IMG/VR virus record: IMGVR_UViG_3300010430_000349
Coordinates: 1-29,605 of that record
Reading direction: 5' to 3' (one strand)
Length of the DNA: 29,605 nt
DNA from: a virus
Shown: in pieces, positions 10,175 to 28,948 of the stretch
How positions within the stretch are numbered: position 1 is the stretch's first letter
How the letters are laid out: every line of letters begins with the position of its first letter
The notes under the pieces: generated by a model
Database searches by the model: none
Told to the model about the DNA's origin: nothing
The model's input: the letters and a program-made list of their open reading frames with translations, nothing else
Made by a program: the position numbers and the translations under genes

Positions 10175-10175
10175 T

Positions 10176-10880: not shown

Positions 10881-10886
10881 GATGCT

Positions 10887-13563: not shown

Positions 13564-13578
13564 TTTAATAGCCTCCTG

Positions 13579-14271: not shown

Positions 14272-14281
14272 GGGTATCCTC

Positions 14282-15766
14282 CTATACGCTCATGGCGGTG
14301 CGCCGCCGACGTTTCCACTTTTCGGCGCCGCGTTTCTTGGGTTTGTTGCCTGTTAGGCGGACCATGACATATTGAAAGGCATCATGGATATGGCTAAACC
14401 GGTTCTTTTCTGGATCGTCAAAGTATTCGCCGGTGTTCATTATCTCTTTGTAATGGTATCCGCCTAAGAATCCGTTTAATAACCTGGTGCACCTGGGATC
14501 GATCAAGCATCCATCGATACGCGCCAGGATCCCATCGACGGCCTGCGTTCTGGCCGTAAAGTTTTGCTCCGAGCTCTCGATCTTGACGCCTTCCTCTGTC
14601 ATTAATATGGCATTACTGGTAAATCCTCCCTCTTTTTTGCTAAACTTGGCCGCGCCGGCCGGATCCCCATAATCTACCCACTCGGCGTTAGGAAATTCGG
14701 TGTTACATTTTTCCTTTACCCACTTAGTAAAATCGATGATCCCCATCTTATCGTGGCAAAATTCCCGCATTACATGAAACCGCAAAGGCGAGGGGTTATG
14801 GACTACGACCGCGGCCGGCACGTTGCCCGAGTTATCCCATCCTCGATACAGGGTGCCAGGTCCGGACCATATCAAAGGGGCGCCGGCCTGGTGCATATCG
14901 CGCCGGAAATTATAATAAACCAGCTTACCTTTGACCAGGACGCCTGGCTTTCCATCGACATACATTTCGATCCAATCTGGCGTATCCTTATAATCCAAAA
15001 TTAGATCGTTATAATAGCCAGGCCTGAGATACTTCTCGTTTTCCCTGGGTGGCTGCCAAAATCCCTCATGGTTGGCCAGTGGTTCAATTTCCGGTATGGG
15101 CCCTGGCACTTCGTTCTGCCAGGCAAATTGATGATAGGTGGGCATTTCTATATCGGGCGGGTTCGTTGTTTCTATGCCGAATCGAGGTAGCGGGAATGTT
15201 TCCTCACCATCGATGATCCATTCGGGCGGGATCTCTTTATATTTTTCCTTGTACCACTGCAGGGCCTTTTTCATCTTAGGAAATCGGCCGATCCGATTTT
15301 TAAGCATCCTCTTGATAGCGTCGGCCACTTCGATAGACTCATCGATCCAATAGCCGGTTATCTCGAGGCTTTTAAACTTCTTAACGTCCGCCTCTCGATC
15401 GCATGATCTAAATAAAAGGGTTACGGTGGGGCCGTCCGGATGCTTAATGGTATATTTTTGCTCTTGCTTTAGGAATTTACCGAAAGGAAACCACTCAAAG
15501 ATGGTGGCCTGCGTGGTATCTCGGAGCTCTGCATAGGTATTGCGGACAACAACAAATTTACATTCTTTGATATTGTATTTTGTGAAAAGGTGCCAGGGTA
15601 TAAGGTGGCACACTTCCCAGGTGGCGCCGGTGGTTTTGCCGGATCCGACCGGACCGACCACTGCGCGTAAGGCTGCGCCGGACTTGTGGAATTGCCTTAA
15701 TGTAGGTATCGCGTCATAAGTGACGCTTTCCTCGCCGGCAACCGGTTGTGGTATCGCGCTTGACAA
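14282..15766 (-). CDS. Terminase large subunit (ATPase/nuclease)
   Basis: A 494-residue packaging motor. Walker A is GPVGSGKT (38-45); Walker B is at ITGYWIDES (136-144). The C-terminal RNase H-like nuclease shows Asp311 in RGWDNSG, Asp365/368 in WVDYGDP, and Asp462 in SHIHDAF. It drives ATP-dependent DNA entry through the portal and cuts genome ends. The start is a TTG preceded by GGAG with 7-nt spacing; an upstream ATG at 15780 is in another frame and stops early, and the TerL frame has a TAG 21 nt before the TTG. The rare TTG start may limit expression. Confidence 0.93.
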   Translation of the reverse strand: MSSAIPQPVAGEESVTYDAIPTLRQFHKSGAALRAVVGPVGSGKTTGATWEVCHLIPWHLFTKYNIKECKFVVVRNTYAELRDTTQATIFEWFPFGKFLKQEQKYTIKHPDGPTVTLLFRSCDREADVKKFKSLEITGYWIDESIEVADAIKRMLKNRIGRFPKMKKALQWYKEKYKEIPPEWIIDGEETFPLPRFGIETTNPPDIEMPTYHQFAWQNEVPGPIPEIEPLANHEGFWQPPRENEKYLRPGYYNDLILDYKDTPDWIEMYVDGKPGVLVKGKLVYYNFRRDMHQAGAPLIWSGPGTLYRGWDNSGNVPAAVVVHNPSPLRFHVMREFCHDKMGIIDFTKWVKEKCNTEFPNAEWVDYGDPAGAAKFSKKEGGFTSNAILMTEEGVKIESSEQNFTARTQAVDGILARIDGCLIDPRCTRLLNGFLGGYHYKEIMNTGEYFDDPEKNRFSHIHDAFQYVMVRLTGNKPKKRGAEKWKRRRRTAMSV

Positions 15767-15800
15767 TTCAATCTCCGCATAGGCCTATCCTCTCCTTTTG

Positions 15801-16139
15801 CTACCACCCTCCTGGGCGGTTTAGTTTGGTAAATGGGATCCACTGCTCATGGATCGTGACAAAATCCTTACCGTCGATATTGACCGATACCTTTTTGACG
15901 GTGGATCCAACATGGTACAATTCACGCATAGGCCCCAGGCCATCCCCAGGGCTATGAATAATAGAAACGCCCTCATACCTACCGAGGGCGCCCGTAAAAA
16001 TCGGATTAGTGCGGCCGGCTGCCGGCGCGATTCTCGCTGCAGCTGGTACGGCCTCGAGGCCCAGGGCCAGGCCCAGGGTGCCCAGGGTGGCCAGCTGCAG
16101 AAACTTGCGTCTATTTATTTTCGAGCGATTATTAGGCAT
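15801..16139 (-). CDS. Tat-signal protein with major-capsid-protein-derived domain
   Basis: A 112-residue protein. Residues 8-35 are a textbook twin-arginine leader: NRRKFLQL, a mild hydrophobic stretch rich in Gly/Ala/Leu, and VPAAARI as cleavage region. The remainder repeats collinear pieces of this phage's own capsid protein: GRTNPIFTGALGRY (42-55) against GRNNPIFKGALGMY (269-282), SPGDGL (63-68) against SPGTGL (324-329), and KK...GKDF (82-93) against KK...GKDY (355-364). At DNA level 32 of 41 bases match between 15976-16016 and 6153-6193. The start has only a weak SD (AAAGAA). Export via Tat is predicted; function unknown. Confidence 0.75.
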   Translation of the reverse strand: MPNNRSKINRRKFLQLATLGTLGLALGLEAVPAAARIAPAAGRTNPIFTGALGRYEGVSIIHSPGDGLGPMRELYHVGSTVKKVSVNIDGKDFVTIHEQWIPFTKLNRPGGW

Positions 16140-16244
16140 TTTCTTTAAAATGGGCTATTTGTGTGAAATCACGCAAAAAATGGCCTCGCCAGGTGCGCGA
16201 CATTGGACGATCTCAAGGGCCCGAGTATGGTAGGGTGCAGTAAA

Positions 16245-16877
16245 TTAGGCACTTAACCGCTTAGACATTCCCGCATCGTCCGGTTTCTCTAAGTCGCCAA
16301 CAATGTAATAAGTGATTTTGTCGGCGCCGGATCCGTCCTCATCGATATTAAATGCCTGCCGCTGCAGGGGAACAATTCTGGCCACCACTTCCGATACTGT
16401 TCTCAGGGTAGTGTTTTGATCCTTTAGGGCCAGGGTGGCTGCCACCACAATATTTTTCCGGATACGTTTTCCGGACGCGAGCTCGTCCATTATTATATCG
16501 CCTCTAATTAATCGGTCCAGGGTTACATCACACCGTCGCAAAATTTTATGGAATAAAACCTTGTGAGCGCCGATCACTCCTGCGCCGAGCTCGCCATATT
16601 TGTCGATCGCCTCGGAGTAGTTATCAGCTGTAACCTCTTGCTGTAACTCCTGTTCAATCGATTTCTTTTTTACCGCTGCGCGTACATCGTCGGCCATGTT
16701 TCGGGCCCATCCGAGTTTATCCGCCTTTTTCATTATAGCCTGGCGGGTGGGTCCGTAACTACGGGAAATTGCAGCAATAGATAGCTGGCCTAATATGTAC
16801 TCCTGTTTGATCTCGGTCCACACTTCGGCCGGATAACCGTTGCCATTACCGTTGCCGTTTTTCGTACCTTTCGACAT
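16245..16877 (-). CDS. Terminase small subunit
   Basis: A 210-residue protein with a Gly/Asn-rich start followed by a helix-turn-helix (about 20-62: VWTEIKQEYILGQLSIAAISRSYGPTRQAIMKKADKLGW), as in small terminases that recognise packaging sites. The centre is helical (oligomerisation) and the C-terminus is acidic. It lies in the usual place before TerL, separated only by the Tat-signal gene. Its start overlaps the previous gene. Confidence 0.75.
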   Translation of the reverse strand: MSKGTKNGNGNGNGYPAEVWTEIKQEYILGQLSIAAISRSYGPTRQAIMKKADKLGWARNMADDVRAAVKKKSIEQELQQEVTADNYSEAIDKYGELGAGVIGAHKVLFHKILRRCDVTLDRLIRGDIIMDELASGKRIRKNIVVAATLALKDQNTTLRTVSEVVARIVPLQRQAFNIDEDGSGADKITYYIVGDLEKPDDAGMSKRLSA

Positions 16878-17235
16878 TCCTGTTATGCCTCAAAAGGGTT
16901 CGGGCCAGTTGCAGCTGTAACCGGTATTCGGTTTGTTTCCACACTGGCAATTTTCTAAACGGTAGCATATAAGTTTCTAAATTGGCAACCAAATCCTGCG
17001 AAATGGTGTCCGAATCGATCAATTCCTGGGCGGTTACTTTCCATTTATCATGTAACTCTTTAGGCCTTGTCTTAATATCGTCAATAATTATGGCCATTTG
17101 TGAGTTGAAAATGGTCTGCAAGGCCTCCGGAAGATCGTCAAAAGCCTCGATAGGTGTAACCGGATTGGTCAATTCGTTCAAATCACGAATTGCTGCATAA
17201 ATAATTGCGTTTAGTTTCTCAGTGGTCAAGATCAT
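16846..17235 (-). CDS. Uncharacterised helical protein before TerS
   Basis: The start at 17235 (MILTTEKL) is chosen because GAGG precedes it at 8 nt; an upstream in-frame ATG at 17265 lies in the hairpin 17251-17277 and lacks an SD. The 129-residue product is mainly helical with a basic C-terminus (QLQLARTLLRHNRNVERYEKRQR). It overlaps TerS by 32 bp. Function unknown; a packaging-associated role is possible from position. Confidence 0.55.
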   Translation of the reverse strand: MILTTEKLNAIIYAAIRDLNELTNPVTPIEAFDDLPEALQTIFNSQMAIIIDDIKTRPKELHDKWKVTAQELIDSDTISQDLVANLETYMLPFRKLPVWKQTEYRLQLQLARTLLRHNRNVERYEKRQR

Positions 17236-17250
17236 TTTACCATCCTCGAT

Positions 17251-17277
17251 GCCCAGGGGCGCCACTGGCCCCTGGGC
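17251..17277. other. Perfect GC-rich hairpin
   Basis: GCCCAGGGGC (17251-17260) and GCCCCTGGGC (17268-17277) form a 10-bp perfect stem with a 7-nt loop, right upstream of the RBS for the gene starting at 17235. No U-tract follows, so it is unlikely to be an intrinsic terminator. It resembles the hairpin at 5241-5265 in size and sequence and may be an mRNA processing or translation-control structure. Confidence 0.5.
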
Positions 17278-17298
17278 CTTTACGTTCTGCCTGGGGGT

Positions 17299-17475
17299 TT
17301 ATCCGGTGCCGCCGAATTCGGCCTCAAAGGCCGCCCTGGCGGTTTTTGTTCGGGTTTCCTCACTCACGGCCATAGCGTCGATTTCTTCCGGCGTTTTACC
17401 GGCCGTCGCTTTTTCAAACAAGCGGACTCCTGCCTCTAAAAAGCTCATTAAAATGATTAACTCGCTTGCTCCCAT
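17299..17475 (-). CDS. Small protein of the lysis-terminase interval
   Basis: An ATG at 17475 with AAAGGAGAT 8 nt upstream gives 58 residues; a TTG 21 nt further up would start inside the SD. The N-terminal half is hydrophobic/helical (MGASELIILMSFLEAGVRLF), the C-terminal half acidic-helical. Not recognised. Confidence 0.5.
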   Translation of the reverse strand: MGASELIILMSFLEAGVRLFEKATAGKTPEEIDAMAVSEETRTKTARAAFEAEFGGTG

Positions 17476-17522
17476 ATCGGTATTATCTCCTTTCAAATAG
17501 ATCGATACGCGCCAAATTAGGC

Positions 17523-17903
17523 CTATTCATCCATGTATTTAGCGATTATTGCCACCATTTGCCCGCGCAATTTAAGCCAGGCGCTATTATATGCGGTGGG
17601 ATCCTTTGCCGGATCCAGTAGCGCAATTTTCCAGGCGTCCAGGGTGGTTTCAATCCCATCCATAACCGGCGCCAGATCTTTGTGCATCCCCGCTTTTTGC
17701 TCCGGAGTTAATACAGGGGCATAGGCCGTTAGGGCCTCAACCTGGTCGTTATAAAATTTGCGGGCCGTGACATATTTGCCCTTTGCCGTTTCCGGTATCG
17801 GGTTGCCCTGGAATTGAGCGCAGCCGGCGAACATGAGCGCCAGGAAAATAGCCAGGCCGATTACCAGGCCGTCAAAAATTTCGTTTCGGATCTGCTTTAC
17901 CAT
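17523..17903 (-). CDS. Lipoprotein of the lysis cassette (spanin-like candidate)
   Basis: A 126-residue protein starting after AGGAGGCCTTTAGTT. The N-terminus has a hydrophobic stretch (GLVIGLAIFLALMFAGC) ending in a lipobox-like Cys28, so the mature protein should be lipid-anchored. The remainder is helical (YVTARKFYNDQVEALTAYAP). Directly after the holin gene, a lipoprotein is commonly an outer-membrane spanin or Rz1-like partner, though it is longer than typical Rz1. Function inferred. Confidence 0.6.
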   Translation of the reverse strand: MVKQIRNEIFDGLVIGLAIFLALMFAGCAQFQGNPIPETAKGKYVTARKFYNDQVEALTAYAPVLTPEQKAGMHKDLAPVMDGIETTLDAWKIALLDPAKDPTAYNSAWLKLRGQMVAIIAKYMDE

Positions 17904-17923
17904 AACTAAAGGCCTCCTTTCCT

Positions 17924-18361
17924 TTATTGGGCTATCGGCGTCCGCGGTTCCATACTGCCGGCATCCACCTTTAGCCTCTTGGTTGTTAAAACGGCCACCT
18001 CGACCTGGCCGGAAATAAAATCGTCCAGCTGGCCGATCCCTATCTCGAGAATCTTCTGCGTGGCCGGCGGTAACTGCTGCTTGATTGAAGTCATGGCCGC
18101 GCCTTTCAGCTTTTGGGCCTCGTCCGGAGTTATCACCCCATCGGCGCCGACTTCCTTAACAGTTTCATTTATCTTGGCCACCGTGTTTTGAACCACTACG
18201 CCCAGGACGTTTAAGGCCTCGTTTAGGGCCTCGCTCTTGGTCCGGCTTTTCACCCATTTTTTGAGCTCGTACAGGGCCCAGGTTGTTAAGGCCGAAACGG
18301 CCGCCACTGCAAAGGGAATTATGATCTGCAGCAAACTTTGCATTAAGGTCTGTTCTTCCAT
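17924..18361 (-). CDS. Holin, LL-H-like
   Basis: A 145-residue protein (AGGAGGCAACAG-ATG) with one N-terminal TM helix (about 8-30, LLQIIIPFAVAAVSALTTWALYELKKW) and a long, soluble helical tail. This topology, with a Lys-rich turn after the TM and a helical segment (ALNEALNVLGVVVQNTVAKINETV), fits the LL-H holin superfamily. It would permeabilise the inner membrane and let the soluble endolysin out. Assigned from topology and operon position. Confidence 0.6.
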   Translation of the reverse strand: MEEQTLMQSLLQIIIPFAVAAVSALTTWALYELKKWVKSRTKSEALNEALNVLGVVVQNTVAKINETVKEVGADGVITPDEAQKLKGAAMTSIKQQLPPATQKILEIGIGQLDDFISGQVEVAVLTTKRLKVDAGSMEPRTPIAQ

Positions 18362-18376
18362 CTGTTGCCTCCTGCG

Positions 18377-18850
18377 TTAGGGTTTCTCGCCATTAGACTT
18401 GATAAAAAGCTGGATCCTCTCATCCAGCCGCGCCAACAACTCTTGGCCTATGTCCATTTTTTTAAAGAGGACGCCCATATCGGTTTTAACATTTTTTTTG
18501 TGCTCATCAAACTCGGCCTTTGTTACTATCTCGGTGCGGGCCCGCTCGCGCTTGTTGTCGAATTCTTTTAGGCCCGTACTTAGTTCCTCGATCCTGGCCT
18601 GCAGGGTGCCCTGGCAGGATATTCTGTGGTGCTGCCGGCTTAAATTAATCCGCTCGATCTCCTGGTCGAAATCCGCCCGCGTAATTGCGTTGCCTATTTT
18701 TTCCTCGATCGCGGTCAACCTCTTTATGATATTGCCCAGGCTTTCTTTTAAATTCGGGATCGCAAATCTTATCGTTCCCCACACCGCGGCCGCCGACGTT
18801 ATGAAAAGTACACCGATCAAGATAACTATGTGAATATCCTTAAATACCAC
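18377..18850 (-). CDS. TM/coiled-coil protein (inner-membrane spanin or holin-associated candidate)
   Basis: The frame is open further, but a GTG at 18850 with GGAG 7 nt upstream is the sensible start, since the upstream TTG lies next to the terminator hairpin. The 157-residue product has a TM helix (about 6-30, HIVILIGVLFITSAAAVWGTI) and long coiled-coil segments (NIIKRLTAIEEKIGNAI; ARLDERIQLF). It is the first late gene, followed by holin and lipoprotein. An i-spanin-like role is inferred from topology. Confidence 0.55.
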   Translation of the reverse strand: MVFKDIHIVILIGVLFITSAAAVWGTIRFAIPNLKESLGNIIKRLTAIEEKIGNAITRADFDQEIERINLSRQHHRISCQGTLQARIEELSTGLKEFDNKRERARTEIVTKAEFDEHKKNVKTDMGVLFKKMDIGQELLARLDERIQLFIKSNGEKP

Positions 18851-18869
18851 GTTTCCGCTCCATAAACGC

Positions 18870-18899
18870 AAAAAGCCTGGGGGTGGTCAAACCCCAGGC
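18870..18899 (-). terminator. Intrinsic terminator at the early-late junction
   Basis: On the minus strand GCCTGGGG, a 9-nt loop (TTTGACCAC), CCCCAGGC and then TTTTT form a rho-independent terminator. It ends just before the first late gene (GTG 18850) and about 105 nt after the promoter at 18983-19012, like lambda tR'. Confidence 0.8.
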
Positions 18900-18982
18900 C
18901 TCTTGCAAAAGAAGATTGAATAAATTAGTTGATCCATTTTGTCGCCCGCTTACGTTCCAATGTGACTCAGGATAGAGGCAAT

Positions 18983-19012
18983 ATGGTAAAGCTAATTATT
19001 CGGGCTTGTCAA
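18983..19012 (-). promoter_or_regulatory. Sigma70-like late promoter candidate
   Basis: On the minus strand a perfect -35 TTGACA (19007-19012), an 18-nt spacer and TACCAT (18983-18988, 4 of 6) as -10 predict a start near 18976. The -35 overlaps the last codons of the gene at 18996-19412. The transcript would have a ~105-nt leader that ends at the terminator 18870-18899. Confidence 0.6.
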
Positions 19013-19412
19013 CTTCTTTTTTTTCAGCATCCGGATCCGCGGTCGTTTCCTCGGCCTCATCGGCTGCCGGTGGATCCTCTGGCGCCGCGGATCCGCCGCT
19101 CGCTTTAATGCTCTGAATATTCTGAACAATTTTTATGATCGTGGCCGCGTACTTTGTGGCCTGCTCCGGACTTAACGCCATCCAGCTTATCGATTGCCCA
19201 AAATCGACAATCACCTGGCCGTCTTGCTCGCGGACCTGTACTCTTAGATCTCGTTTCTGTTGGGGCATCATGCCGCCGGCCGCCCCTGGGCCCTGCCCTT
19301 GATTAAATGGGATCCCATGTTTTTTAGCCGCCGCCTTAACTTCATCTAAAAAGGCCATTTGTTTTTTTACGTCCTTAACGCTTTTATCGTCACCGTTGCC
19401 TTTTTTCGCCAT
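18996..19412 (-). CDS. Uncharacterised acidic-tailed protein next to the late promoter
   Basis: A 138-residue protein with a basic N-terminus (MAKKGNGDDKSVKDVKKQM), a Gly/Met linker (QGQGPGAAGGMMPQQ), a central mixed domain (LRVQVREQDGQVIVDFGQSISWMALSPEQATKYAATIIKIVQNI), and an acidic tail (PPAADEAEETTADPDAEKKE). It is the last gene of the early minus operon. Lambda Q occupies the equivalent place before pR', but no Q-like sequence is apparent. Confidence 0.6.
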   Translation of the reverse strand: MAKKGNGDDKSVKDVKKQMAFLDEVKAAAKKHGIPFNQGQGPGAAGGMMPQQKRDLRVQVREQDGQVIVDFGQSISWMALSPEQATKYAATIIKIVQNIQSIKASGGSAAPEDPPAADEAEETTADPDAEKKEVDKPE

Positions 19413-19418
19413 AATAAT

Positions 19419-19658
19419 TTAGCTCCTTTCATATTCGTTATAATGAAATTCAACCGCCTTAGCGCCTCGCGCCTTTAAGTGCAACTCCATAATATCAAGA
19501 TCAAATTTATCCTTTTCATCGGCATAAACCTTAACCTCGATCAATACCACCTGGCCCTCGATCTGCTGCGCGTTAAAAAACTTCCTGGCCTCGGGTTGAT
19601 ATTCTGCATAGGTTTGTGGCGTCGACTTTCGCCTTAAATCCAGTACCAGCTTAACCAT
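19419..19658 (-). CDS. Uncharacterised small early protein
   Basis: A 79-residue protein whose ATG overlaps the preceding stop (TAATG), so translation is coupled. A beta/alpha pattern with GQVVLIEVKVYADEKDKFDLDIMELHLKARGAKAVEFHY. Not recognised. Confidence 0.55.
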   Translation of the reverse strand: MVKLVLDLRRKSTPQTYAEYQPEARKFFNAQQIEGQVVLIEVKVYADEKDKFDLDIMELHLKARGAKAVEFHYNEYERS

Positions 19659-19858
19659 TATGTTTTAAATCCTAAATTCTTGCTGACTCTAACGTGCTCG
19701 GCATTTCCCACCTGGGCCCGCATATCCGTCATAACCTTTTTGTAATACTCGCCGGCCTCGCCCTGGAAAATGGGATCTCCGCCTTTAGCAAATCGCCACC
19801 GGTTCATCAATGCGTAATAAGTAGCATTGTCAATCCATTCCTTTTGATCCTTATCCAT
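19658..19858 (-). CDS. Small conserved phage protein
   Basis: A 66-residue protein (CCAGGAGGTTAGATC-ATG) with DKDQKEWIDNATYYALMNRWRFAKGGDPIFQGEAGEYYKKVM, a pattern known to me from many phage early regions with unknown function. Its RBS follows directly on the structured hairpin at 19890-19949. Confidence 0.65.
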   Translation of the reverse strand: MDKDQKEWIDNATYYALMNRWRFAKGGDPIFQGEAGEYYKKVMTDMRAQVGNAEHVRVSKNLGFKT

Positions 19859-19889
19859 GATCTAACCTCCTGGTCAAGCGTAAAATATC

Positions 19890-19949
19890 AACTCTGAAAT
19901 GGCTGGCGGTCTGGCCCGCTTTTGGCCAGGCGCCGGACAATTCAGAGTT
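19890..19949. ncRNA. Long, nearly symmetric stem-loop (structured RNA candidate)
   Basis: Three nested stems: AACTCTGAA/TTCAGAGTT (9 bp, 19890-19898 with 19941-19949), GGCG/CGCC, and CTGGCC/GGCCAG around a 7-nt loop, separated by a 6x6 and a 2x1 internal loop. It fills the intergenic gap between the gene at 19956-20147 and the RBS of the next gene. No U-tract follows. It could be an mRNA processing site or regulatory structure. Confidence 0.5.
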
Positions 19950-19955
19950 TAGATT

Positions 19956-20147
19956 TTAAAGCGATAGATCCGACCGACGGCCACACCGCCGACAATACAT
20001 GGCCGAGTACTCCGCGAAACCCGCCAATGGATCCTTATCTGCGAGCTCGATAATCCGCTCATCCGGCGGGATCCCCTCGAGCGCCGCGCCGGTCCAATCG
20101 TGATCGCCTATAAAGCAAAGAAATTTGCCCCACCATTTTTTAATCAT
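19956..20147 (-). CDS. Small zinc-ribbon phage protein (DUF1660-like)
   Basis: The ATG at 20147 overlaps the stop of the tiny gene upstream (ATGA). 63 residues with a Trp-rich start (MIKKWWGKFLCFIGDHDW) and CRRCG near the end; Cys/His and CxxC pairs suit one zinc site, as in DUF1660-type proteins. A longer frame from 20228 would cover the neighbour's reading and is not chosen. Function unknown. Confidence 0.6.
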   Translation of the reverse strand: MIKKWWGKFLCFIGDHDWTGAALEGIPPDERIIELADKDPLAGFAEYSAMYCRRCGRRSDLSL

Positions 20148-20263
20148 GTTACCGCCCTTTCCCACCATTTTAGCGCGATCGGCGTTAGCCAAATGCCGAG
20201 AATAACGGCCGCCGCGATAATCGACCATACAAAAACAAGTGCATACATTTTCTGCTTAGTCAT
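20144..20263 (-). CDS. Tiny single-TM membrane protein (39 aa)
   Basis: The ORF MTKQKMYALVFVWSIIAAAV...WWERAVT is 39 residues. ATG overlaps the upstream stop (AAATGA) and the stop overlaps the next start (ACATGA), so both ends have ATGA coupling. Residues about 7-27 form one TM helix, with Lys residues before and Arg after. Function unknown; small phage membrane proteins include holin regulators and superinfection-exclusion factors. Confidence 0.65.
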   Translation of the reverse strand: MTKQKMYALVFVWSIIAAAVILGIWLTPIALKWWERAVT

Positions 20264-20529
20264 TTGTCGCCCTCAAAATCGAAAAGGATTTGATCCGGAT
20301 CATATTTCACCGTCATGCCGTCTTTTACCCGCGTTTTGATAAAATTGATCTCGGTCCTCTGTTTAACCTGGCCCTTGTCCATTTTCACCGTTACGCCAAA
20401 ACCGATCTTTACCTCTCGATCGCCGTTTTTGTACGCCTGGTCAATTTGATCGGTATATGTATCGAAATATTTACCGATCGTGGCGAGCGCGTTCTCCTTT
20501 ATCTTCTGCATTTTTAGTATGTTTGCCAT
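20260..20529 (-). CDS. Uncharacterised early protein
   Basis: An 89-residue protein (AGGAGGGTGGAAA-ATG), helical first half (IKENALATIGKYFDTYTDQIDQAYK) then beta (REVKIGFGVTVKMDKGQ). Followed by ATGA coupling to the tiny TM gene. Not recognised. Confidence 0.6.
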   Translation of the reverse strand: MANILKMQKIKENALATIGKYFDTYTDQIDQAYKNGDREVKIGFGVTVKMDKGQVKQRTEINFIKTRVKDGMTVKYDPDQILFDFEGDK

Positions 20530-20686
20530 TTTCCACCCTCCTTAATGCTCTGCGATCTGTTATAATTAACTGGTTATCGATCTCGATTAATACAGAATTA
20601 AGCCGGCCGGTGGCCAGGATCCGGCATGGCCGGCCTTTCAATCTTGCCCTTACAGGATTATTAGCCCAATAATATTGATATATCAT
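20471..20686 (-). CDS. Small conserved phage protein
   Basis: A 71-residue ORF with RLKGRPCRILATGRLNSVLIEIDNQLIITDRRALRR, a beta-barrel-like pattern seen in short phage proteins of unknown function. It overlaps the next gene by 59 bp, and its SD is weak, so the exact start is uncertain. Confidence 0.5.
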   Translation of the reverse strand: MIYQYYWANNPVRARLKGRPCRILATGRLNSVLIEIDNQLIITDRRALRRVENGKHTKNAEDKGERARHDR

Positions 20687-20758
20687 TTTAAACCAGGCCA
20701 GGGCAGGCGCCGCGTCCTTTTTCCACTTTGGGGGATTACGTTGCGCCCGCCCAGGCGT

Positions 20759-20775
20759 CCGGCGGTCCTCGCCGG
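20759..20775. other. Short hairpin after a stop codon
   Basis: CCGGCG, a 5-nt loop and CGCCGG directly follow the stop of the gene at 20776-20973 on the minus strand. There is no U-tract. It may be a minor stability element; confidence is low. The rest of the gap (20687-20758) shows nothing further. Confidence 0.3.
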
Positions 20776-20973
20776 TTAGTCAAACAATTTCCTTTGCTGG
20801 TCTTTAGCTTTTTGCACCGTTGTAGCATGGTGCCCGCGGGAAACTTCAATCATCTTCCCGCATCCCTCGCACTCGAAATAATATGTTTTACCAGGCTTGA
20901 TCTTCGCATCGTTTCTTGCAAAAGGCTGGCGCCGCATACATTTTGGACAAGTGCCAATATTCCTGGCCCTCAT
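20776..20973 (-). CDS. Small zinc-ribbon protein
   Basis: A 65-residue protein with CPKC near the N-terminus and CEGC about 22 residues later, i.e. a four-Cys zinc ribbon, plus a Lys/Gln-rich C-terminal helix (TTVQKAKDQQRKLFD). Coupled to the upstream gene by ATGA. Possibly nucleic-acid binding. Confidence 0.6.
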   Translation of the reverse strand: MRARNIGTCPKCMRRQPFARNDAKIKPGKTYYFECEGCGKMIEVSRGHHATTVQKAKDQQRKLFD

Positions 20974-21305
20974 CCTGGCTCGGTCCTTTCCTCGTCCGGT
21001 CCGGTATCCTCGCTGGCCACTTCGGGCCCTGGCGAATCTTGCGCCGGCGGGCCCAGGCTTTCAACCGTCCGGCCGGATCCCAGGTTTCCATTACAGGGCA
21101 TCGGACCATGCGAGGCTTTCCGCGCCGCATTATAGGCCTTTTCGACTTCCTCCGGATCCGCGAAATACTCGCGCATAGCGGTTAAAAGTTTGTTGGTAGA
21201 TGAAAAGGTGAGCTCCGCGCATCCAACTCTTGCGATAACTCCGCCATTAACAGTTGGTATTACATGGATTTCGTAAGGAAATGCCAGTTTGAATTCAATC
21301 GTCAT
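20970..21305 (-). CDS. Uncharacterised early protein with disordered tail
   Basis: The start at 21305 follows GGAGGGCACCC; the longer frame to 21479 reads across the neighbouring gene and is rejected. 111 residues: a beta-rich core (IEFKLAFPYEIHVIPTVNGGVIARVGCAELTF), one helix (EEVEKAYNAARKAS) and a Pro/Glu-rich tail. It overlaps the Tad1-like gene by 11 nt. Function unknown. Confidence 0.55.
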   Translation of the reverse strand: MTIEFKLAFPYEIHVIPTVNGGVIARVGCAELTFSSTNKLLTAMREYFADPEEVEKAYNAARKASHGPMPCNGNLGSGRTVESLGPPAQDSPGPEVASEDTGPDEERTEPG

Positions 21306-21681
21306 GGGTGCCCTCCGTTCCCGCGGCCTCTCGTCGTGCGGTCCTGGTTTCCAGTGCTTCAAGTGCGTCTTTAAGATAGTTGATAGCGGCCTCGTTCTCG
21401 TCGCAGTGGAATTTAGATTTTTGATAAAATTGGAGTCGATCGATAGCTGCAAATATAATGCTCTCGACAAAAGCGCCATTTGGTATCCGCCTTTCTTCGC
21501 CGCGCCCCAGGGGCCCCATCTGCCAGGAAATAGTATAGCCCATTCCTGTTGATACGCCGCCGGCCGGATTTCCTCTTGAATCTAACCAGTGCTCGCTAAA
21601 ATCGCCCATCGGCGCGAGTTTCATTTCGGCCAGTTCTTTCTCGGTGGTCGGTACCGGCCTTTCATCTTGATTTATCGTCAT
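21295..21681 (-). CDS. Tad1/Acb2-type cyclic-nucleotide sponge candidate (anti-defence)
   Basis: The start at 21681 has AGGAG at 9 nt; the upstream ATG at 21705 codes through this SD. 128 residues. The core has GYTISWQMGPLGRG, RIPNGAFVES, AIDRLQFYQKSKF, then CDENEAAINYLKDALEALETRTARREAAGTEGTH, a pattern I associate with the Tad1/Acb2 hairpin-domain phage proteins. Known members bind Thoeris and CBASS second messengers and block these defences without degrading the signal. Early-operon placement suits rapid anti-defence. Assigned from recalled family motifs, not a search. Confidence 0.6.
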   Translation of the reverse strand: MTINQDERPVPTTEKELAEMKLAPMGDFSEHWLDSRGNPAGGVSTGMGYTISWQMGPLGRGEERRIPNGAFVESIIFAAIDRLQFYQKSKFHCDENEAAINYLKDALEALETRTARREAAGTEGTHDD

Positions 21682-21877
21682 TTTTAGGATCTCCTTTCCT
21701 TGCATCTAACCAGTTGATAGTTGTTTCCAGGGCATCAACATGAGTGCCGGTAATAGCATAGGGCCAGGTTTCACCCATATTATTATCGTCCGCCCTGTCT
21801 GTCATAAAACCATCTAACCATAATCGGAGCTCCTTTAATTCGTTTAGGATCTCCGGATCGCCTGGATCTTGAAACAT
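21662..21877 (-). CDS. Small acidic early protein
   Basis: A 71-residue protein with two helices (EILNELKELRLWLDGFM; HVDALETTINWLDARKGD) and an acidic linker. Its end overlaps the Tad1-like start by 20 nt. Not recognised; could be functionally linked to its neighbour, but there is no direct evidence. Confidence 0.5.
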   Translation of the reverse strand: MFQDPGDPEILNELKELRLWLDGFMTDRADDNNMGETWPYAITGTHVDALETTINWLDARKGDPKNDDKSR

Positions 21878-21891
21878 GGTTTTCCTTTCTG

Positions 21892-22221
21892 TTATTGATT
21901 CATTAGTTTATGCACTTCGCGCTGCCAAAACGTCTGTTGTTTTTTGGCCTCGGTTAATTGGTTTTTCTTAAATTGATTACTCGGCGCCCTGGCTACTTCG
22001 CCGGTCAATCTTTCCACCTGGGCCTGCCAGTACCATAATTGATTTTGGGCCGCGGCCACCTGGTTGTTTTTCTGGATCTGGATCATTTGTTTCTGCATAT
22101 CCGCCACCCATAACTCATGTACCTCTCGCGGTGTAAATTGATCGTTTAGGCCCCATACCGCGCCGAATAATGCAAAAACTGTTAAGATCGTGCCGGCTAT
22201 TACCTTAAATTTTCCGTTCAT
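21892..22221 (-). CDS. Single-TM coiled-coil protein
   Basis: Start 22221 follows AAAGGAGATCCAACTT. 109 residues: N-terminal TM (about 5-25, FKVIAGTILTVFALFGAVWG), then a periplasmic-type coiled coil with many Gln/Asn (ADMQKQMIQIQKNNQVAAAQNQLWYWQAQVERLTG). N-in/C-out topology resembles inner-membrane spanins, but it lies in the early operon, away from the lysis genes. Function unknown. Confidence 0.55.
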   Translation of the reverse strand: MNGKFKVIAGTILTVFALFGAVWGLNDQFTPREVHELWVADMQKQMIQIQKNNQVAAAQNQLWYWQAQVERLTGEVARAPSNQFKKNQLTEAKKQQTFWQREVHKLMNQ

Positions 22222-22529
22222 AAGTTGGATCTCCTTTGCTGCTCCCAATACTCGCGCAGAGCTTTAAGGGTTTGATCCAACTCCTTTGGATCGCAAAATG
22301 GATGATACTTTACTCGGTGCTCTTTTATAAGATCGACAACTACCTCTTTAAATCGATCGTACATAATTTCAAAGGATTTATTTCTGGCCTTTGCGTTACA
22401 TCTAAGTAGGTGGGCCTCTTGCTCACCGACCGCGAGCTCGATCTTTTTATCTCAGAGATCCATCATTACCTTGACAATTTCCTCGAGGGTAACGGGCTTT
22501 TTCCTGGGCCGTCCTGGGCCGCGTTTCAA
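22218..22529 (-). pseudogene. AT-hook-like gene interrupted by an in-frame TGA
   Basis: A 104-codon frame (TTG at 22529, overlapping the upstream stop as TTGA; its TGA stop overlaps the next ATG) fits perfectly between its neighbours. However codon 26 is TGA (22452-22454), splitting KRGPGRPRKKPVTLEEIVKV...DL from DKKIELAVGEQEAHLL. The N-terminus carries an AT-hook-like GRPRKKP; the rest is helical, with a coding-like Lys/Glu pattern. Other genes here use TGA as their only stop, so general recoding is unlikely. It is a nonsense mutation, a readthrough site, or an assembly error. Confidence 0.6.
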
Positions 22530-22900
22530 AATAAAGGCCTTTGCTCACGCCTGGGTTCCCGCGGTGGCGCCAGGGTCCAGGTATGTACCATTTTTCCCTG
22601 CAGGCCCAATACCATAGGCACCTTGTCTTTATCGTTTTTTATCAATTTGCCCTCTATAACCAAATTCCTTAAACAGCGAACGATACTTGATTGCAATAGG
22701 CCCATTTCAATTTCAACCTGGTGCCTGGGTATGTTTTGGCCTGGCCGGTCTTTGAAATACTGCCAGACTCGATCCTCTTGTTTGCCGGCGTCTTTTTGGC
22801 TTTTTAGTAGGGTGGCGCCGGTTTCAAAGTTGGTATTGTAATATGTACCGCGTTTCTTTTGGCACAACTCGCACATACAATCGTCGGGGTGATCGATCAT
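22526..22900 (-). CDS. Winged-helix-like DNA-binding protein with zinc knuckle
   Basis: A 124-residue protein (AGGAGGCGAAACC-ATG). The N-terminus has CMCELC, a likely zinc knuckle. Residues about 40-90 (WQYFKDRPGQNIPRHQVEIEMGLLQSSIVRCLRNLVIEGKLI) fit a winged helix-turn-helix with wing. The C-terminus is basic (PPREPRREQRPLF). It may regulate early genes or serve in replication. Confidence 0.6.
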   Translation of the reverse strand: MIDHPDDCMCELCQKKRGTYYNTNFETGATLLKSQKDAGKQEDRVWQYFKDRPGQNIPRHQVEIEMGLLQSSIVRCLRNLVIEGKLIKNDKDKVPMVLGLQGKMVHTWTLAPPREPRREQRPLF

Positions 22901-22915
22901 GGTTTCGCCTCCTGG

Positions 22916-23200
22916 CTATTCGTCATTTCCTCGATCTTTGGTGCGGTCATATAGCGGTAAAGGGGTGGTAATTTCATCCAACTCACCTATTAAATTTTGA
23001 TTTAATAGTTTTTTAACCTCTCTTTTCATGCCGACCTTAACCATTAATGACATAACTTTAAGCGTATTTTGTACGCGCCGGTTCGTTTGCTTATATATTG
23101 AAACCTGGGCATCTAAATCCTCTCGGCTAACTGTGCCCTCTTTAAAATCAACCAGTAATTTACGCAGTTCATTTATCTCCGATACTATCATCCTGGCCAT
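22916..23200 (-). CDS. Uncharacterised helical early protein
   Basis: A 94-residue protein starting after CAAAGGAGGTATTAG. Strongly helical (EINELRKLLVDFKEGTVSREDLDAQVSIYKQTNRRVQNTLKV), ending in a charged loop. It overlaps the upstream gene by 32 bp. This layout resembles short phage proteins that accompany replication genes; not recognised more precisely. Confidence 0.55.
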   Translation of the reverse strand: MARMIVSEINELRKLLVDFKEGTVSREDLDAQVSIYKQTNRRVQNTLKVMSLMVKVGMKREVKKLLNQNLIGELDEITTPLPLYDRTKDRGNDE

Positions 23201-23675
23201 CTAATACCTCCTTTGCTTTTTTTAATTCTCGGTGCATTAAGATATGCTCCCGCTTGACCTGTATTATTATTGGATCGTTTACCCAAATACCGGAGTGCCG
23301 ATATATAACCTTTTTAACATAAGTATCTGATAAAAATAGCCGATTATACAATTCTCGTTGCTGCTTTATTCTTGATAGATCTCTATTTTGGTTATAGGGG
23401 CCGCGTCGAGTGGCCTTAATACGGCGAGGGCGATTACTTGCCTCCCACTTCCGGCTATAATCCCTGCATTTTTCCCTATTTTTACCCCGCCAGATCCGCA
23501 TCGATGCCCGCGTGTTTTCTTTATAGCGCGTCCTTTTTAAGAGGTTGGTACACTCAATACAACAACCGGATTTTTTGCCTTTTTTTAGTTTCCTTAATGA
23601 TTTACTGGTCCTTTTGTATGTGTGCCCTCGCTTGCATAACGTACCGAGGTAACTCTTTTCGGCATCAAAATCCAT
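23169..23675 (-). CDS. Zinc-binding HNH-like phage protein
   Basis: A 168-residue, very basic protein. N-terminal YLGTLCKRGHTYKRTSKSLR...CCIECTNLLKRTRY (about 9-50) has the CxxxH...CxxC zinc-ribbon found in many phage proteins related to HNH-type nucleases; a basic helical middle and the C-terminal PIIIQVKREHILMHRELKK follow. The His/Asn of a full HNH active site could not be placed, so nuclease activity is unproven. It may be a DNA-binding or homing-type protein. Confidence 0.5.
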   Translation of the reverse strand: MDFDAEKSYLGTLCKRGHTYKRTSKSLRKLKKGKKSGCCIECTNLLKRTRYKENTRASMRIWRGKNREKCRDYSRKWEASNRPRRIKATRRGPYNQNRDLSRIKQQRELYNRLFLSDTYVKKVIYRHSGIWVNDPIIIQVKREHILMHRELKKAKEVLDGQDDSIGDK

Positions 23676-24106
23676 TATCGAAAGGGATCCCGAAAGCCGG
23701 CCAGGTTGTTCAACCGGATCGGCCGGACCTTGATATAGGCATCCTGGGCCGCGGCCGCGGCCTCGCTGGTCGTTGCGGATCCGCCGCCGCTGGCGCCCAT
23801 TGTGTGCTTAGTATCGAGGCAAAATTCAATATGGATAATTTTTGTTTTTGGTGAATTCCACCAAAAGGCCAGGCATCCTAATTGAGCTCCGGACCGCTCA
23901 TTATCAAATTTGTCATAAAGGCCCTGGGCCGTCCAATCTCCGGACCTGGGCAGGAGATCGACCGATTTAAGGATCTCGATTACCATACCGCTGCAGTCAA
24001 ATCCCTCGATCGTATCGGATCCGCCCCATCGATAGGGTAGGCCATGCAGTGACCAGGCCACCTTTTCGGCCAGCTTTAACTTGTGGATTAATTCGTGATT
24101 TTCCAT
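23675..24106 (-). CDS. NlpC/P60 peptidoglycan hydrolase (putative endolysin)
   Basis: A 143-residue soluble enzyme. PYRWGG (24-29) and GFDCSG with Cys38 mark the NlpC/P60 fold, and IIHIEF with His92 gives the second catalytic residue; the third position is probably His101. The family cuts gamma-D-Glu-mesoDAP bonds in cell walls. No signal peptide, so it would depend on the holin for release. Its position in the early/replication operon, about 5 kb from the holin, is unusual. Start overlaps nothing but follows GAGGTAAA. Confidence 0.8.
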   Translation of the reverse strand: MENHELIHKLKLAEKVAWSLHGLPYRWGGSDTIEGFDCSGMVIEILKSVDLLPRSGDWTAQGLYDKFDNERSGAQLGCLAFWWNSPKTKIIHIEFCLDTKHTMGASGGGSATTSEAAAAAQDAYIKVRPIRLNNLAGFRDPFR

Positions 24107-24107
24107 T

Positions 24108-24557
24108 TTACCTCACAATCTTGAAACCTTGATATTCGGCCTCAAATTTCTTTAATCTTAATTTACCTTTGGTGGATCCATACTGCTTGCGCCAGTTCTC
24201 GCAGGATCCACAAAGCACAATAGCCGATTGCCGCTTTTCACTATCGCCATTAGCCGCGTATTTCACAAAATAATAGCCCTGGCCGTCGCAATCAGTACAG
24301 GGTTCATCTATTGGTTTAGGCCTGGCCTCCGGATTATCAGCATAATAGATCTTGATAAATTCTTTTAACTTAAACAGCATATTATAAGGCCGCCGGCCGA
24401 GCTCCGTTTTCATTTTCTCTAAGACGGCCGCCAGGGTTTGCAATTCCACCTTTTCAACGTGCCAAAACCAGCTTTCAATCGTTGCCGCCGGTGGCCTTTC
24501 TATCCCTGTTGTTTCGTAAAATTCGTTCATTAATTCTCTGTAAGTTTCGAGATCCAT
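24108..24557 (-). CDS. Zinc-finger protein following the replication initiator
   Basis: A 149-residue protein. The N-terminal ~95 residues are helical (YRELMNEFYETTGI...VELQTLAAVLEKMKTELG). A CTDCDGQGYYF motif and CGSCENW give a four-Cys DnaJ-like zinc finger. It overlaps the initiator gene by 28 bp. In lambda-like phages the second gene is the helicase loader; here a primosome-accessory role is plausible but unproven. One iteron copy lies in the gene (24482-24496). Confidence 0.6.
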   Translation of the reverse strand: MDLETYRELMNEFYETTGIERPPAATIESWFWHVEKVELQTLAAVLEKMKTELGRRPYNMLFKLKEFIKIYYADNPEARPKPIDEPCTDCDGQGYYFVKYAANGDSEKRQSAIVLCGSCENWRKQYGSTKGKLRLKKFEAEYQGFKIVR

Positions 24558-25438
24558 AGTTTAAAATCCTCTGCATCGATTTTGTTATCCTGACAATATC
24601 GCAGGCAGGCCTCCTGGCCAGACTCGCGCAATATGCCGGCCGCTATTTTATAACGGCGTTCCCTTACCTTTTGTTTCTCGGACTTGGCCAGGTTCTTTGA
24701 TCGTTTGGCCTCTTGTAGGTAGGCGTCGAACTTCCGAGGCCGAAATAATGTATCCGGCCTTAAATATTGGGTCATTTTAGAATCGCCTAACCATTGATCG
24801 GTTTTCACGCTGATTACATCGTAAAAATCTTGCTCGGTGTATCCGGTCCTAAACCGAGCTCGGATCTGGCCCCTGGTTGATTCGTTTTGATCGTTATAGC
24901 TGGATCCGGTTAATAGGTTCAGATATTCGATGATTTTTTTATATGGTGGTATAATTTTAGCCGGCGGTGGGGGTGCGGGCGGTTCGCTCGCGCCATTTTC
25001 TTTTAAGTTATCTTTTATATTTTCTTTTAATAAGGTACCGTTGCCGCCGGTGGCATCATCGTTGCCACTGGTGGCACTACCCTTGCCGCCGGTGGTCTTT
25101 GTTGCCGCCGGTGGCAATTTCTTCCAGGTTTTATAATACTTATTAAATGAATATGTTAGTGTACGTTGATTGCCACTGGTGGCAACTTTTATAACTTTCA
25201 TTTTTACCAGGCGCCGGCGGACCTGGCAAACCTTATAGATCGGCATGGCGGTCATATCTGCCAGCTGTTGATTTTCAATCCTGGCCTTTTTGCGGCCGTG
25301 GATCCCATAGGTTAATCGAAACACTGCCAGGACCAGGCGAATATCGGTATTTCGGCATTTCCATTTACAAAGTGCCTCTAATAATTCATTAGCCAGCCGC
25401 GTATATCCATCCTCGACTTGCGGGGCGCCCTTTTTCAT
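24530..25438 (-). CDS. Replication initiator, lambda O-like with conserved phage C-terminal domain
   Basis: A 302-residue protein. Residues about 5-110 form an O-type winged-helix domain (YTRLANELLEALCKWKCRNTDIRLVLAVFRLTYG...QQLADMTAMPIYKVCQVRRRLV). A Gly/Thr/Asn linker (about 115-150) is encoded by the iterons. The C-terminal part (about 165-260: IIEYLNLLTGSSY...RPDTLFRPRKFDAYL) matches the conserved phage C-terminal domain found in initiators. It would bind the iterons, open the AT-rich stretch and load helicase. Starts 9 nt after the XRE gene stop, in the same operon. Confidence 0.8.
   Translation of the reverse strand: MKKGAPQVEDGYTRLANELLEALCKWKCRNTDIRLVLAVFRLTYGIHGRKKARIENQQLADMTAMPIYKVCQVRRRLVKMKVIKVATSGNQRTLTYSFNKYYKTWKKLPPAATKTTGGKGSATSGNDDATGGNGTLLKENIKDNLKENGASEPPAPPPPAKIIPPYKKIIEYLNLLTGSSYNDQNESTRGQIRARFRTGYTEQDFYDVISVKTDQWLGDSKMTQYLRPDTLFRPRKFDAYLQEAKRSKNLAKSEKQKVRERRYKIAAGILRESGQEACLRYCQDNKIDAEDFKLWISKLTEN
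24995..25184. repeat. Replication origin candidate: iterons plus AT-rich unwinding region
   Basis: Five palindromic copies of TTGCC(G/A)C(C/T)GGTGGCA start at 25041, 25062, 25083, 25102 and 25170; the first three are 21 bp apart, and copy 3 ends GGTC. A sixth partial copy is at 24482. Next to them, 24995-25033 is a T-rich AT block (TTTTCTTTTAAGTTATC...), an expected unwinding element. They lie in the linker-coding part of the initiator gene, as lambda ori lies in O. Confidence 0.75.
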
Positions 25439-25447
25439 GGCCCGCCC

Positions 25448-25669
25448 TTATCGGAAATCGTCTTTATTTATAAACAACTTCTTAACCGTCGTGCCCAGCG
25501 CCTCTGCTATTTTTATTTCTTCCTCATCGGTCGGCCGCATCCGACCGCGTTTGATATGTGAAAGTTTCGCGCTATCGACTCCCGCCTTTTTAGCCACTTC
25601 TATGGCCTGCAGGCCGGACTCTCTGATGGCCTTTTCTAATTCCCAATTATGGTATGCCTCAACTCTCAT
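25448..25669 (-). CDS. XRE-family transcriptional regulator (Cro/CI-like)
   Basis: A 73-residue protein (AGGAGGTTTTAAAGC-ATG) with a full XRE helix-turn-helix: LEKAIRESGLQAIEVAKKAGVDSAKLSHIKRGRMRPTDEEEIKIAEALG (about 11-59). It is the first gene of the minus early operon and lies beside the divergent promoters. It would bind an operator between them (candidate 25738-25752) and control its own operon and the plus operon. No CI-like dimerisation domain, so Cro-like use is likely. Confidence 0.85.
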   Translation of the reverse strand: MRVEAYHNWELEKAIRESGLQAIEVAKKAGVDSAKLSHIKRGRMRPTDEEEIKIAEALGTTVKKLFINKDDFR

Positions 25670-25705
25670 GCTTTAAAACCTCCTTTGATTATGGTTTTTT
25701 GTTTA

Positions 25706-25734
25706 GTTGTAGGCCCATAGAATTAATATGTCAA
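25706..25734 (-). promoter_or_regulatory. Promoter for the minus early operon
   Basis: On the minus strand TTGACA (25729-25734), a 17-nt spacer and TACAAC (25706-25711) predict transcription starting near 25700, upstream of the XRE gene. The -10 is 4 of 6. Confidence 0.65.
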
Positions 25735-25737
25735 TAC

Positions 25738-25752
25738 CAAACAAATAGTTTG
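25738..25752. promoter_or_regulatory. Palindromic operator candidate
   Basis: CAAAC-AAATA-GTTTG is a perfect 5+5 inverted repeat located between the two divergent -35 boxes and overlapping the plus-strand -35. It is the natural binding site for the XRE protein. Confidence 0.5.
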
Positions 25753-25779
25753 ACACGGTTAATTTTTGTGGTGTATAAT
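25750..25779 (+). promoter_or_regulatory. Consensus promoter for the plus operon
   Basis: TTGACA (25750-25755), an 18-nt spacer and TATAAT (25774-25779) are both perfect hexamers; start expected near 25786. The leader to the first start (25877) is about 90 nt. Confidence 0.85.
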
Positions 25780-25876
25780 CGTAGTACGTCAAAGTAGGAT
25801 AAATAAACCTAAAGTATATGAACGAAAAGCCAATAATATATACAGGGGTAAACCAATAACAAAGGAGATCGAATAC

Positions 25877-26080
25877 ATGAAAACAAGAATTAAAATGATC
25901 GAGGCGGACCACATGAATAACGGCCAGGAAAAAAAGATAAACGATGAAATCTGCCAGCTTGAAGCAAGTCGGAATATAGAAATAGTATCGGTCAAAACCC
26001 ACTTTCTGCCAGGGTGCGGATACTCCGCGATTATCACCTACACCATTAACGATGCACCGGCCGAAAGATACGAACGATAA
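25877..26080 (+). CDS. Uncharacterised first gene of the plus operon
   Basis: The start at 25877 is preceded by AAAGGAGATCGAATAC; the open frame extends up to 25766 but that would begin inside the -10 region. 67 residues with a charged helical half and a beta half (IEIVSVKTHFLPGCGYSAIITYTI), a double-strand pattern seen in sporadic small phage proteins. Function unknown. Confidence 0.65.
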   Translation: MKTRIKMIEADHMNNGQEKKINDEICQLEASRNIEIVSVKTHFLPGCGYSAIITYTINDAPAERYER

Positions 26081-26094
26081 AGGAGATTGAATTT

Positions 26095-26247
26095 ATGAAA
26101 AACGCAGGCCCAAACAAAGTATTTTTTCCCCAGGACCGGATAGACGAGCTGGCCGCCTTTTTGCTGGCCGTCCTGTTTCACGGTGGCCACTTCACCGTCG
26201 AGAATGGTCCGGACTTCGGGTACACGGTCGAGGTAATGAAAAAATGA
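26095..26247 (+). CDS. Small uncharacterised protein (50 aa)
   Basis: A 50-residue ORF starting after AAAGGAGATTGAATTT. MKNAGPNKVFFPQDRIDELAAFLLAVLFHGGHFTVEN: one amphipathic/hydrophobic helix and a beta end. The stop overlaps the next ATG (ATGATGA). Good RBS and coupling support expression. Confidence 0.6.
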   Translation: MKNAGPNKVFFPQDRIDELAAFLLAVLFHGGHFTVENGPDFGYTVEVMKK

Positions 26248-26624
26248 TGAAAAAAACCAAACTGGAAAAAGAATTAGCAACCTTGCGCGAGCGGTACCGG
26301 CGCCAGAAAGAAAAAGCCGAGCTCGCTTGCTTTTTCGCGGCCGATCATCAATGGAAAGAATTAGCCGAGATCGAGTGTGGCCGCCGAGGCATCAAGGCCC
26401 GCTTTCTATCTTTCGGATCGCCGCACAATTCAATGGCGCCACAATGGGCTAAAGACTTACACGCCGAAATAAGGGCCGAGATCCTGCCGCGCTTTATGGC
26501 CCAGGCCAATACCACTCTAAGGAAGATCGACCGACTAAGGGCCCGCCCAAAACCAAAAATCAAAATCAACATGGCCCAGGTTATCCAGCTCGAATTTTGG
26601 CCGGATCTATCCAGGGCCGCATAG
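26244..26624 (+). CDS. Uncharacterised basic helical protein
   Basis: A 126-residue protein, Lys/Arg/Glu-rich at the start (KLEKELATLRERYRRQKEKAEL), a Trp-containing middle, and a basic end (RKIDRLRARPKPKIKI). No motif recognised. Start overlaps the previous stop; a second ATG follows immediately. Confidence 0.55.
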   Translation: MMKKTKLEKELATLRERYRRQKEKAELACFFAADHQWKELAEIECGRRGIKARFLSFGSPHNSMAPQWAKDLHAEIRAEILPRFMAQANTTLRKIDRLRARPKPKIKINMAQVIQLEFWPDLSRAA

Positions 26625-26631
26625 GTGAATT

Positions 26632-26895
26632 ATGAAACACATCTATTGGATTATAGGATTTTTGATTATCGCCCTGGTGGCCTACTGCGCCGGTATCCAT
26701 ACCGGCAAACTGCAGGCCGCCCAGGAGTGCATCGATCAAGTCGCTGAAAATTGCGATTATATTTGCGGGGTTGGTGCAGATTTTTACTATCCGGACAAAC
26801 AGACTCCGGACGCCCGCCAGGACGAGTACGAGCTGGTGGACGATTCGATGGTAGCAAGAAAAGGAGATTATGGATTATATACCAAAACACGTTAA
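26632..26895 (+). CDS. Single-TM protein with Cys-containing periplasmic part
   Basis: An 87-residue protein, TM helix about 4-22 (IYWIIGFLIIALVAYCAGI), then an outer segment with CIDQVAENCDYICG, followed by an acidic part. Its end overlaps the next gene by 26 nt. SD is weak (AGGTGAATT). Possibly membrane-anchored; function unknown. Confidence 0.5.
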   Translation: MKHIYWIIGFLIIALVAYCAGIHTGKLQAAQECIDQVAENCDYICGVGADFYYPDKQTPDARQDEYELVDDSMVARKGDYGLYTKTR

Positions 26896-27055
26896 TCTGG
26901 ATATTCAAGTCAATCCGGAGAATTACGGATTTAAGCAGTGCCCGCACTGTAAAGGTTATGGATCCAGCCTAAAGGAAAAGGCTGTCATTTGCTCTAAATG
27001 CGACGGTATAGGCCTGGTCAAGGCTTGTGATACCAGCGAGGATTATTCAATTTAG
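26870..27055 (+). CDS. DnaJ-type zinc-finger mini-protein
   Basis: A 61-residue protein (AAAAGGAGATT-ATG). CPHCKGYG and CSKCDGIG form a CxxCxGxG pair, as in the DnaJ zinc finger. Possible chaperone-like or nucleic-acid binding role. Start lies inside the TM gene. Confidence 0.65.
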   Translation: MDYIPKHVNLDIQVNPENYGFKQCPHCKGYGSSLKEKAVICSKCDGIGLVKACDTSEDYSI

Positions 27056-27063
27056 GGGGGATT

Positions 27064-27279
27064 ATGGGTTATGTATTCGTTACCGCCGCGTGTATTTCAT
27101 GCCGGCGGATTTTTGGTTTTAATCCTCATAAGGTTCCATCGATCCGGATCAAGGGAGTAAAACAACCGGTATGCCGCGAGTGCATCGAGGCCGCTAATCC
27201 TAAAAGGATTAAAAATGGCCTGCCGCCGGTCGAGATCCTACCAGGCGCCTATGAGCCAATGAACGAGGTAGAATTATGA
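27064..27279 (+). CDS. Zinc-ribbon phage protein
   Basis: A 71-residue protein with GYVFVTAACISCRRIFGFNPHKVPSIR and CREC, the four-Cys pattern of a small phage family. The C-terminus PGAYEPMNEVEL is typical of it. SD AGGGGGGATT. Stop overlaps the next start. Confidence 0.65.
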   Translation: MGYVFVTAACISCRRIFGFNPHKVPSIRIKGVKQPVCRECIEAANPKRIKNGLPPVEILPGAYEPMNEVEL

Positions 27280-27506
27280 ATATCAAGAAATGTAAATGCG
27301 GTGCCGATATTGCCTTTATAACGATGGTTACAGGCAAAAAAATGCCGGTCGATGCTAAACCGGAAAGCATGGTCATGGTGCCAGAATATACCGGCATCCA
27401 GTTATTTACCGATCGCCAGGGGGAAATGGTCAAGGTGTACCGGCCGCATTGGGGCACCTGTCCGCTGGCTAAACAGTTCAAAAAGAAAGAGAAAAAAGGA
27501 GATTGA
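27276..27506 (+). CDS. Small zinc-ribbon-like protein
   Basis: A 76-residue protein with KCKCGADIAF, a beta core (MPVDAKPESMVMVPE) and CPLAKQFKKKEKKG at the end: CxC plus a distant Cys could bind zinc. Coupled to the previous gene (ATGA) and its stop overlaps the SD of the next gene. Confidence 0.6.
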   Translation: MNIKKCKCGADIAFITMVTGKKMPVDAKPESMVMVPEYTGIQLFTDRQGEMVKVYRPHWGTCPLAKQFKKKEKKGD

Positions 27507-27511
27507 ATCTA

Positions 27512-28612: not shown

Positions 28613-28625
28613 AAAGGGGTTATCG

Positions 28626-28946: not shown

Positions 28947-28948
28947 AT

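Follow-up and report, generated by a model that had tools for sequence, protein, structure and literature searches.

The 128-aa product of a minus-strand gene at positions 21295–21681 of the window (the whole stretch of DNA analyzed, a 29.6-kb viral record) belongs to the Tad1 family, and the gene very probably encodes a Tad1 sponge with an N-terminal beta-sheet and a C-terminal helical hairpin. The original prediction had described a Tad1/Acb2-like sponge; the family was borne out by sequence, profile, and predicted fold and could be narrowed to Tad1, while the Acb2 part was not retained.

The tad1 gene and its sequence family

The ORF was present as originally claimed, and the peptides quoted for it, namely, RIPNGAFVES, AIDRLQFYQ, CDENEAAINYLKDALEAL, and RTARREAAGTEGTH, were all found in its translation. 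The start was placed at 21681 because a Shine–Dalgarno-like element read from the sequence, AAAGGAGAT (21689..21697, minus strand), lies just upstream and because the start is identical in the closest relative (L001:410); the mechanically called ORF opens further upstream, at 21705. The AAAGGAGAT element is contained in the upstream gene, at whose 3′ end it codes for KGD. Copies of tad1 on independent viral contigs were 89, 78, and 74% identical, dN/dS was about 0.19–0.27, and the differences from these copies were concentrated at third codon positions; consequently, tad1 is a genuine gene and not a chance ORF, and it is under purifying selection.

A phmmer search of the PDB sequences with the tad1 product returned only Tad1 entries and phiKZ gp184 (E-value = 2e-6), with CmTad1 (8kbb) as the best match (E-value = 3.9e-7); the chain of entry 7uav is named "ABC transporter ATPase", whereas the entry itself is titled Tad1. 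A profile search had been proposed as a check on the assignment, and a seven-sequence profile led to Tad1 and to no other family: CmTad1, CbTad1, and gp184 were matched in the PDB at E-values of 2.5e-27, 1e-12, and 8e-11, respectively, and the next, unrelated match appeared only at 0.098, leaving a clean gap. No Acb2 was retrieved from the PDB sequences by either the single-sequence or the profile search. Relatives in named-phage records came from Vibrio Ackermannviridae and from phages of Bacillus, among them the annotated Tad1 of SBSphiJ7 (tblastn, 38% identity over 109 residues), and relatives were encoded by 86 viral stretches. The matching PHROG family was phrog_2428 (E-value = 2.4e-17), whose function is given as unknown in that library. 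The plasmid search yielded no tad1 relatives; in bacterial genome contigs, no loci were found with a narrow alignment and nine with a broader one.

The window protein remained unmatched in Pfam, NCBIfam, and PADLOC. The silence of PADLOC is uninformative, since the authentic SBSphiJ7 Tad1 is likewise unmatched there. The Pfam entry PF24729 (Acb2_Tad1_hairpin) did not match the window protein up to an E-value of 1; this model matched one of the seven aligned members, SBSphiJ7 Tad1 being among the seven, and is thus narrow, so that the miss bears on the Pfam entry and not on Tad1 homology, which was established directly by sequence comparison.

Conserved residues, clades, and ligand preference

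By analogy with characterized Tad1 proteins, the product would probably form dimers and hexamers and trap immune second messengers during infection (the sponge mechanism is reviewed in PMC12043709). The candidate ligands are gcADPR (glycocyclic ADP-ribose), made by the TIR enzymes of Thoeris, and/or the cyclic di-/trinucleotides of CBASS; with the signal trapped, ThsA or the CBASS nucleases/phospholipases would not be triggered and abortive death would be averted. The further claim that the gene shows the host range to include defended strains goes beyond what the sequence implies.

Seven residues (G56, G69, R82, N96, R113, R117, and G124) were invariant in 58 homologues spanning two deep clades. 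In the profile alignment, Y86, N96, R113, and R117 corresponded to the presumed gcADPR contacts of CbTad1, namely, Phe82, Asn92, Arg109, and Arg113 (numbered as in the chain, less one). N96, R113, and R117 were found in 58/58 homologues, and their alignment with these presumed contacts marks them as putative pocket positions; the counterpart of Phe82 is Y86 in the window protein.

The maximum-likelihood tree divided the relatives into two groups (support 100/100). The 37-row clade of the window protein remained intact (100/99) when fragments of CmTad1, CbTad1, and phiKZ gp184 were added, and it left out all four placed Tad1 proteins, namely, SBSphiJ7 Tad1, CmTad1, CbTad1, and phiKZ gp184, the own positions of CbTad1 and gp184 being unsure because their rows are long or partial and the bootstrap was unsettled. 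All sources of the window-clade members were viral contigs or Vibrio phages, and the bacterial-genome loci placed in the tree fell into the other (Bacillota-type) clade. The window clade is recognized by a GNPxGG turn and the motifs GPLxRGxxR and NGAFVED. Between P57 and N68, in the loop joining the last strand to the first helix, 33 of 36 members of this clade had at least 10 residues vs. 5–6 residues in 22/22 of the other; R64 was present in 27/36 window-clade members, and Tyr replaces Phe at position 86. Judged provisionally on the four placed proteins, with other Tad1 proteins that have been tested in published work, e.g., ColiTad1 (PMC12657218), lying outside the tree, the window clade seems uncharacterized. 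Since no placed Tad1 shares its clade, the ligand range is not confidently transferable to the window protein.

The longer loop before the first helix may tune ligand choice. A stronger version of this idea is that, in this large uncharacterized clade, the Arg-bearing loop reshapes the pocket so that a nucleotide signal other than gcADPR or cyclic trinucleotides is sequestered; the Tad1 fold would then be kept while Thoeris is no longer blocked. The depth and separateness of the clade, the loop length, the frequency of R64, and the exchange of Phe for Tyr at position 86 are consistent with such a change; however, the conserved Asn and the two Arg are kept in all members, and several signal classes are already bound by characterized Tad1 proteins, so that an altered preference would remain within the Tad1 kind. 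A changed ligand is considered unlikely, and a Tad1 sponge is the preferred reading.

Predicted fold and the distinction from Acb2

Structure prediction had also been suggested as a check, and it gave a Tad1 fold. The AlphaFold2 model of the single chain, built on a 58-member alignment, had a mean pLDDT of 88 (the means of ten-residue blocks exceeded 90 across residues 31–120), and its elements followed the order of strands E28–33, E39–46, and E49–53 and helices H72–87 and H94–120. In a Foldseek search with this model, every match at an E-value below 0.001 was a Tad1 structure. In VIA-align, the best structural matches were likewise all Tad1, with CbTad1 in complex with gcADPR at Z = 10.2 (rmsd = 3.5, 113 aligned residues) and CmTad1 at Z = 9.9 (rmsd = 2.7, 109 aligned residues, identity = 29%), whereas the top unrelated row reached Z = 6.3.

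An Acb2-type sponge, i.e., a helical hairpin without a beta-sheet domain that is specific for CBASS cyclic nucleotides, would share with Tad1 the C-terminal helical hairpin (Pfam Acb2_Tad1_hairpin), and T4 Vs.4 (Acb2) was indeed among the structural matches (Z = 5.8). This match lies among the unrelated helical rows and not above them, the sequence searches yielded Tad1 entries and no Acb2, and the Acb2 layout of a short N-terminal helix followed by two long helices, with no beta-sheet, differs from the model, which carries the three N-terminal strands of Tad1. Strands ahead of the hairpin are the feature separating Tad1 from Acb2 (PMC12043709); because an N-terminal beta-sheet precedes the hairpin in the model, the protein is assigned to Tad1, and an Acb2-type sponge is highly improbable. 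A phage protein with a structural role, or one in decay, that has no more than its fold in common with Tad1 is equally improbable: the 230-residue form phiKZ gp184 is among the matches, and some of the family are carried with the virion, given that the Tad1 encoded by phiKZ is reported to be injected into the host (PMC13282480), but that same protein is reported as an active Tad1, and the window ORF is intact, is under purifying selection, retains every invariant residue, and has no extra domain like that of gp184.

Genome context and comparison with known systems

The minus strand of the window encodes a P22-like portal, a major head protein, terminase subunits, and a holin-like gene, and these genes are preceded by a Cro-like HTH gene (25448–25669) and an O-like replication gene. 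The tad1 gene has the replication gene on one side and the holin/terminase genes on the other and is part of a run of small ORFs that overlap or follow one another closely. The original placement in an early operon agrees with this co-directional run downstream of the Cro-like HTH and O-like genes; since the run is also ahead of the holin/terminase genes, delayed-early expression of tad1 is likely and fits better. No near relative of the DNA at 10000–29605 was found in the named phage collection, no tRNA or Rfam family was found in the window, and no integrase was found in G000–G004, records that may be fragments.

Several other features of this region were recorded. Near-palindromes GCCRCYGGTGGY occur inside the O-like replication gene at 25043, 25064, 25085, and 25104 (19–21 bp spacing) and at 25172, and, with one mismatch allowed, the window contains 17 matches where one would be expected by chance; these repeats (25043–25183) look like lambda-type origin iterons, and none were seen in the relative L002. 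A perfect sigma-70 consensus promoter (TTGACA-N18-TATAAT, 12/12; 25750–25779, plus strand) stands before divergent rightward genes. An NlpC/P60 peptidase gene (23675–24106, E-value = 3e-8) lies on the replication side, at a distance from the holin-like gene (17924–18361), and may code for an endolysin at an unusual location.

The small neighbors of tad1 on the minus strand had been proposed as further anti-defense genes, a claim that found no support beyond their position. The upstream ORF of 71 aa (21662–21877) and the downstream ORF of 111 aa (20970–21305), which overlaps the end of tad1, had no family match in Pfam, PHROG, NCBIfam, or PADLOC, and for neither was a relative detected beyond this phage lineage. 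The downstream ORF keeps its synteny within this lineage alone; it had no relatives among named phages or, in viral contigs, outside that lineage, and its structure model was of low confidence (pLDDT = 58). Next to it, a small zinc-ribbon-like protein gene (20776–20973, minus strand), recognized by its four-cysteine pattern with sub-threshold Pfam zinc-ribbon matches only, is syntenic in L001, L002, and L004. The tad1 neighbors recur only in L001, L002/L003, and L004, which represent the same lineage, and the other tad1 loci compared had no common neighbor function.

The gene that immediately precedes tad1 in L001 (78–413) and L004 (4504–5001) has an additional C1/Cro-type HTH segment ahead of the KGDPK tail common to these genes, a segment missing from the window gene 21662–21877 and from L002; in L004 it gave a sub-threshold HTH_3 match (E-value = 5e-4), and in L001 it was assigned by similarity to L004. 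Aca proteins are products of helix-turn-helix genes beside anti-CRISPR genes and repress those operons; by this analogy, it is a reasonable guess that the HTH gene in L001 and L004 is a candidate regulator of tad1, and an Aca-like regulator may have been gained or lost beside an anti-defense gene. Elsewhere, at L051:2836–3456 and L052:2836–3456 (on contigs 233 kb and 116 kb long), a Tad1 domain is followed in frame by about 80 extra residues, and these ORFs are possible Tad1 fusions.

An uncultured phage lineage whose portal is P22-like thus gains a well-supported Tad1, and a wide Tad1 clade separate from the placed solved Tad1 structures is outlined; the window Tad1 alone leaves the understanding of sponges unchanged, this type of sponge being already known. 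The Tad1 of Bacillus phage SBSphiJ7, the founding Thoeris anti-defense 1 protein, has in common with the window protein, besides the 38% identity over 109 residues, the C-terminal RTAxREx(x)GxEGTH tail, but it belongs to the other deep clade, and its pre-helix loop is shorter and its N-terminal strand region longer. CmTad1 (8kbb/8kbc/8kbd), crystallized with cAAA or cAAG, is the best PDB sequence match (29% identity over the 109 structurally aligned residues) and also belongs to the other clade. CbTad1 (7uaw/8smd/8kbf), bound to gcADPR and cA3, has the top structural Z (10.2 over 113 residues) and keeps the aligned Asn, Arg, and Arg, whereas its identity is 18% and its loop before helix 1 differs in length and sequence. 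PhiKZ gp184 shares the C-terminal hairpin and the GTEGT tail; however, it is a 230-aa protein with an additional N-terminal part, while the window protein is a 128-aa stand-alone form. The resemblance to Acb2 (T4 Vs.4, 7uq2) is confined to the helical hairpin, Acb2 having neither the N-terminal beta-sheet nor a sequence match, with a structural match at background level.
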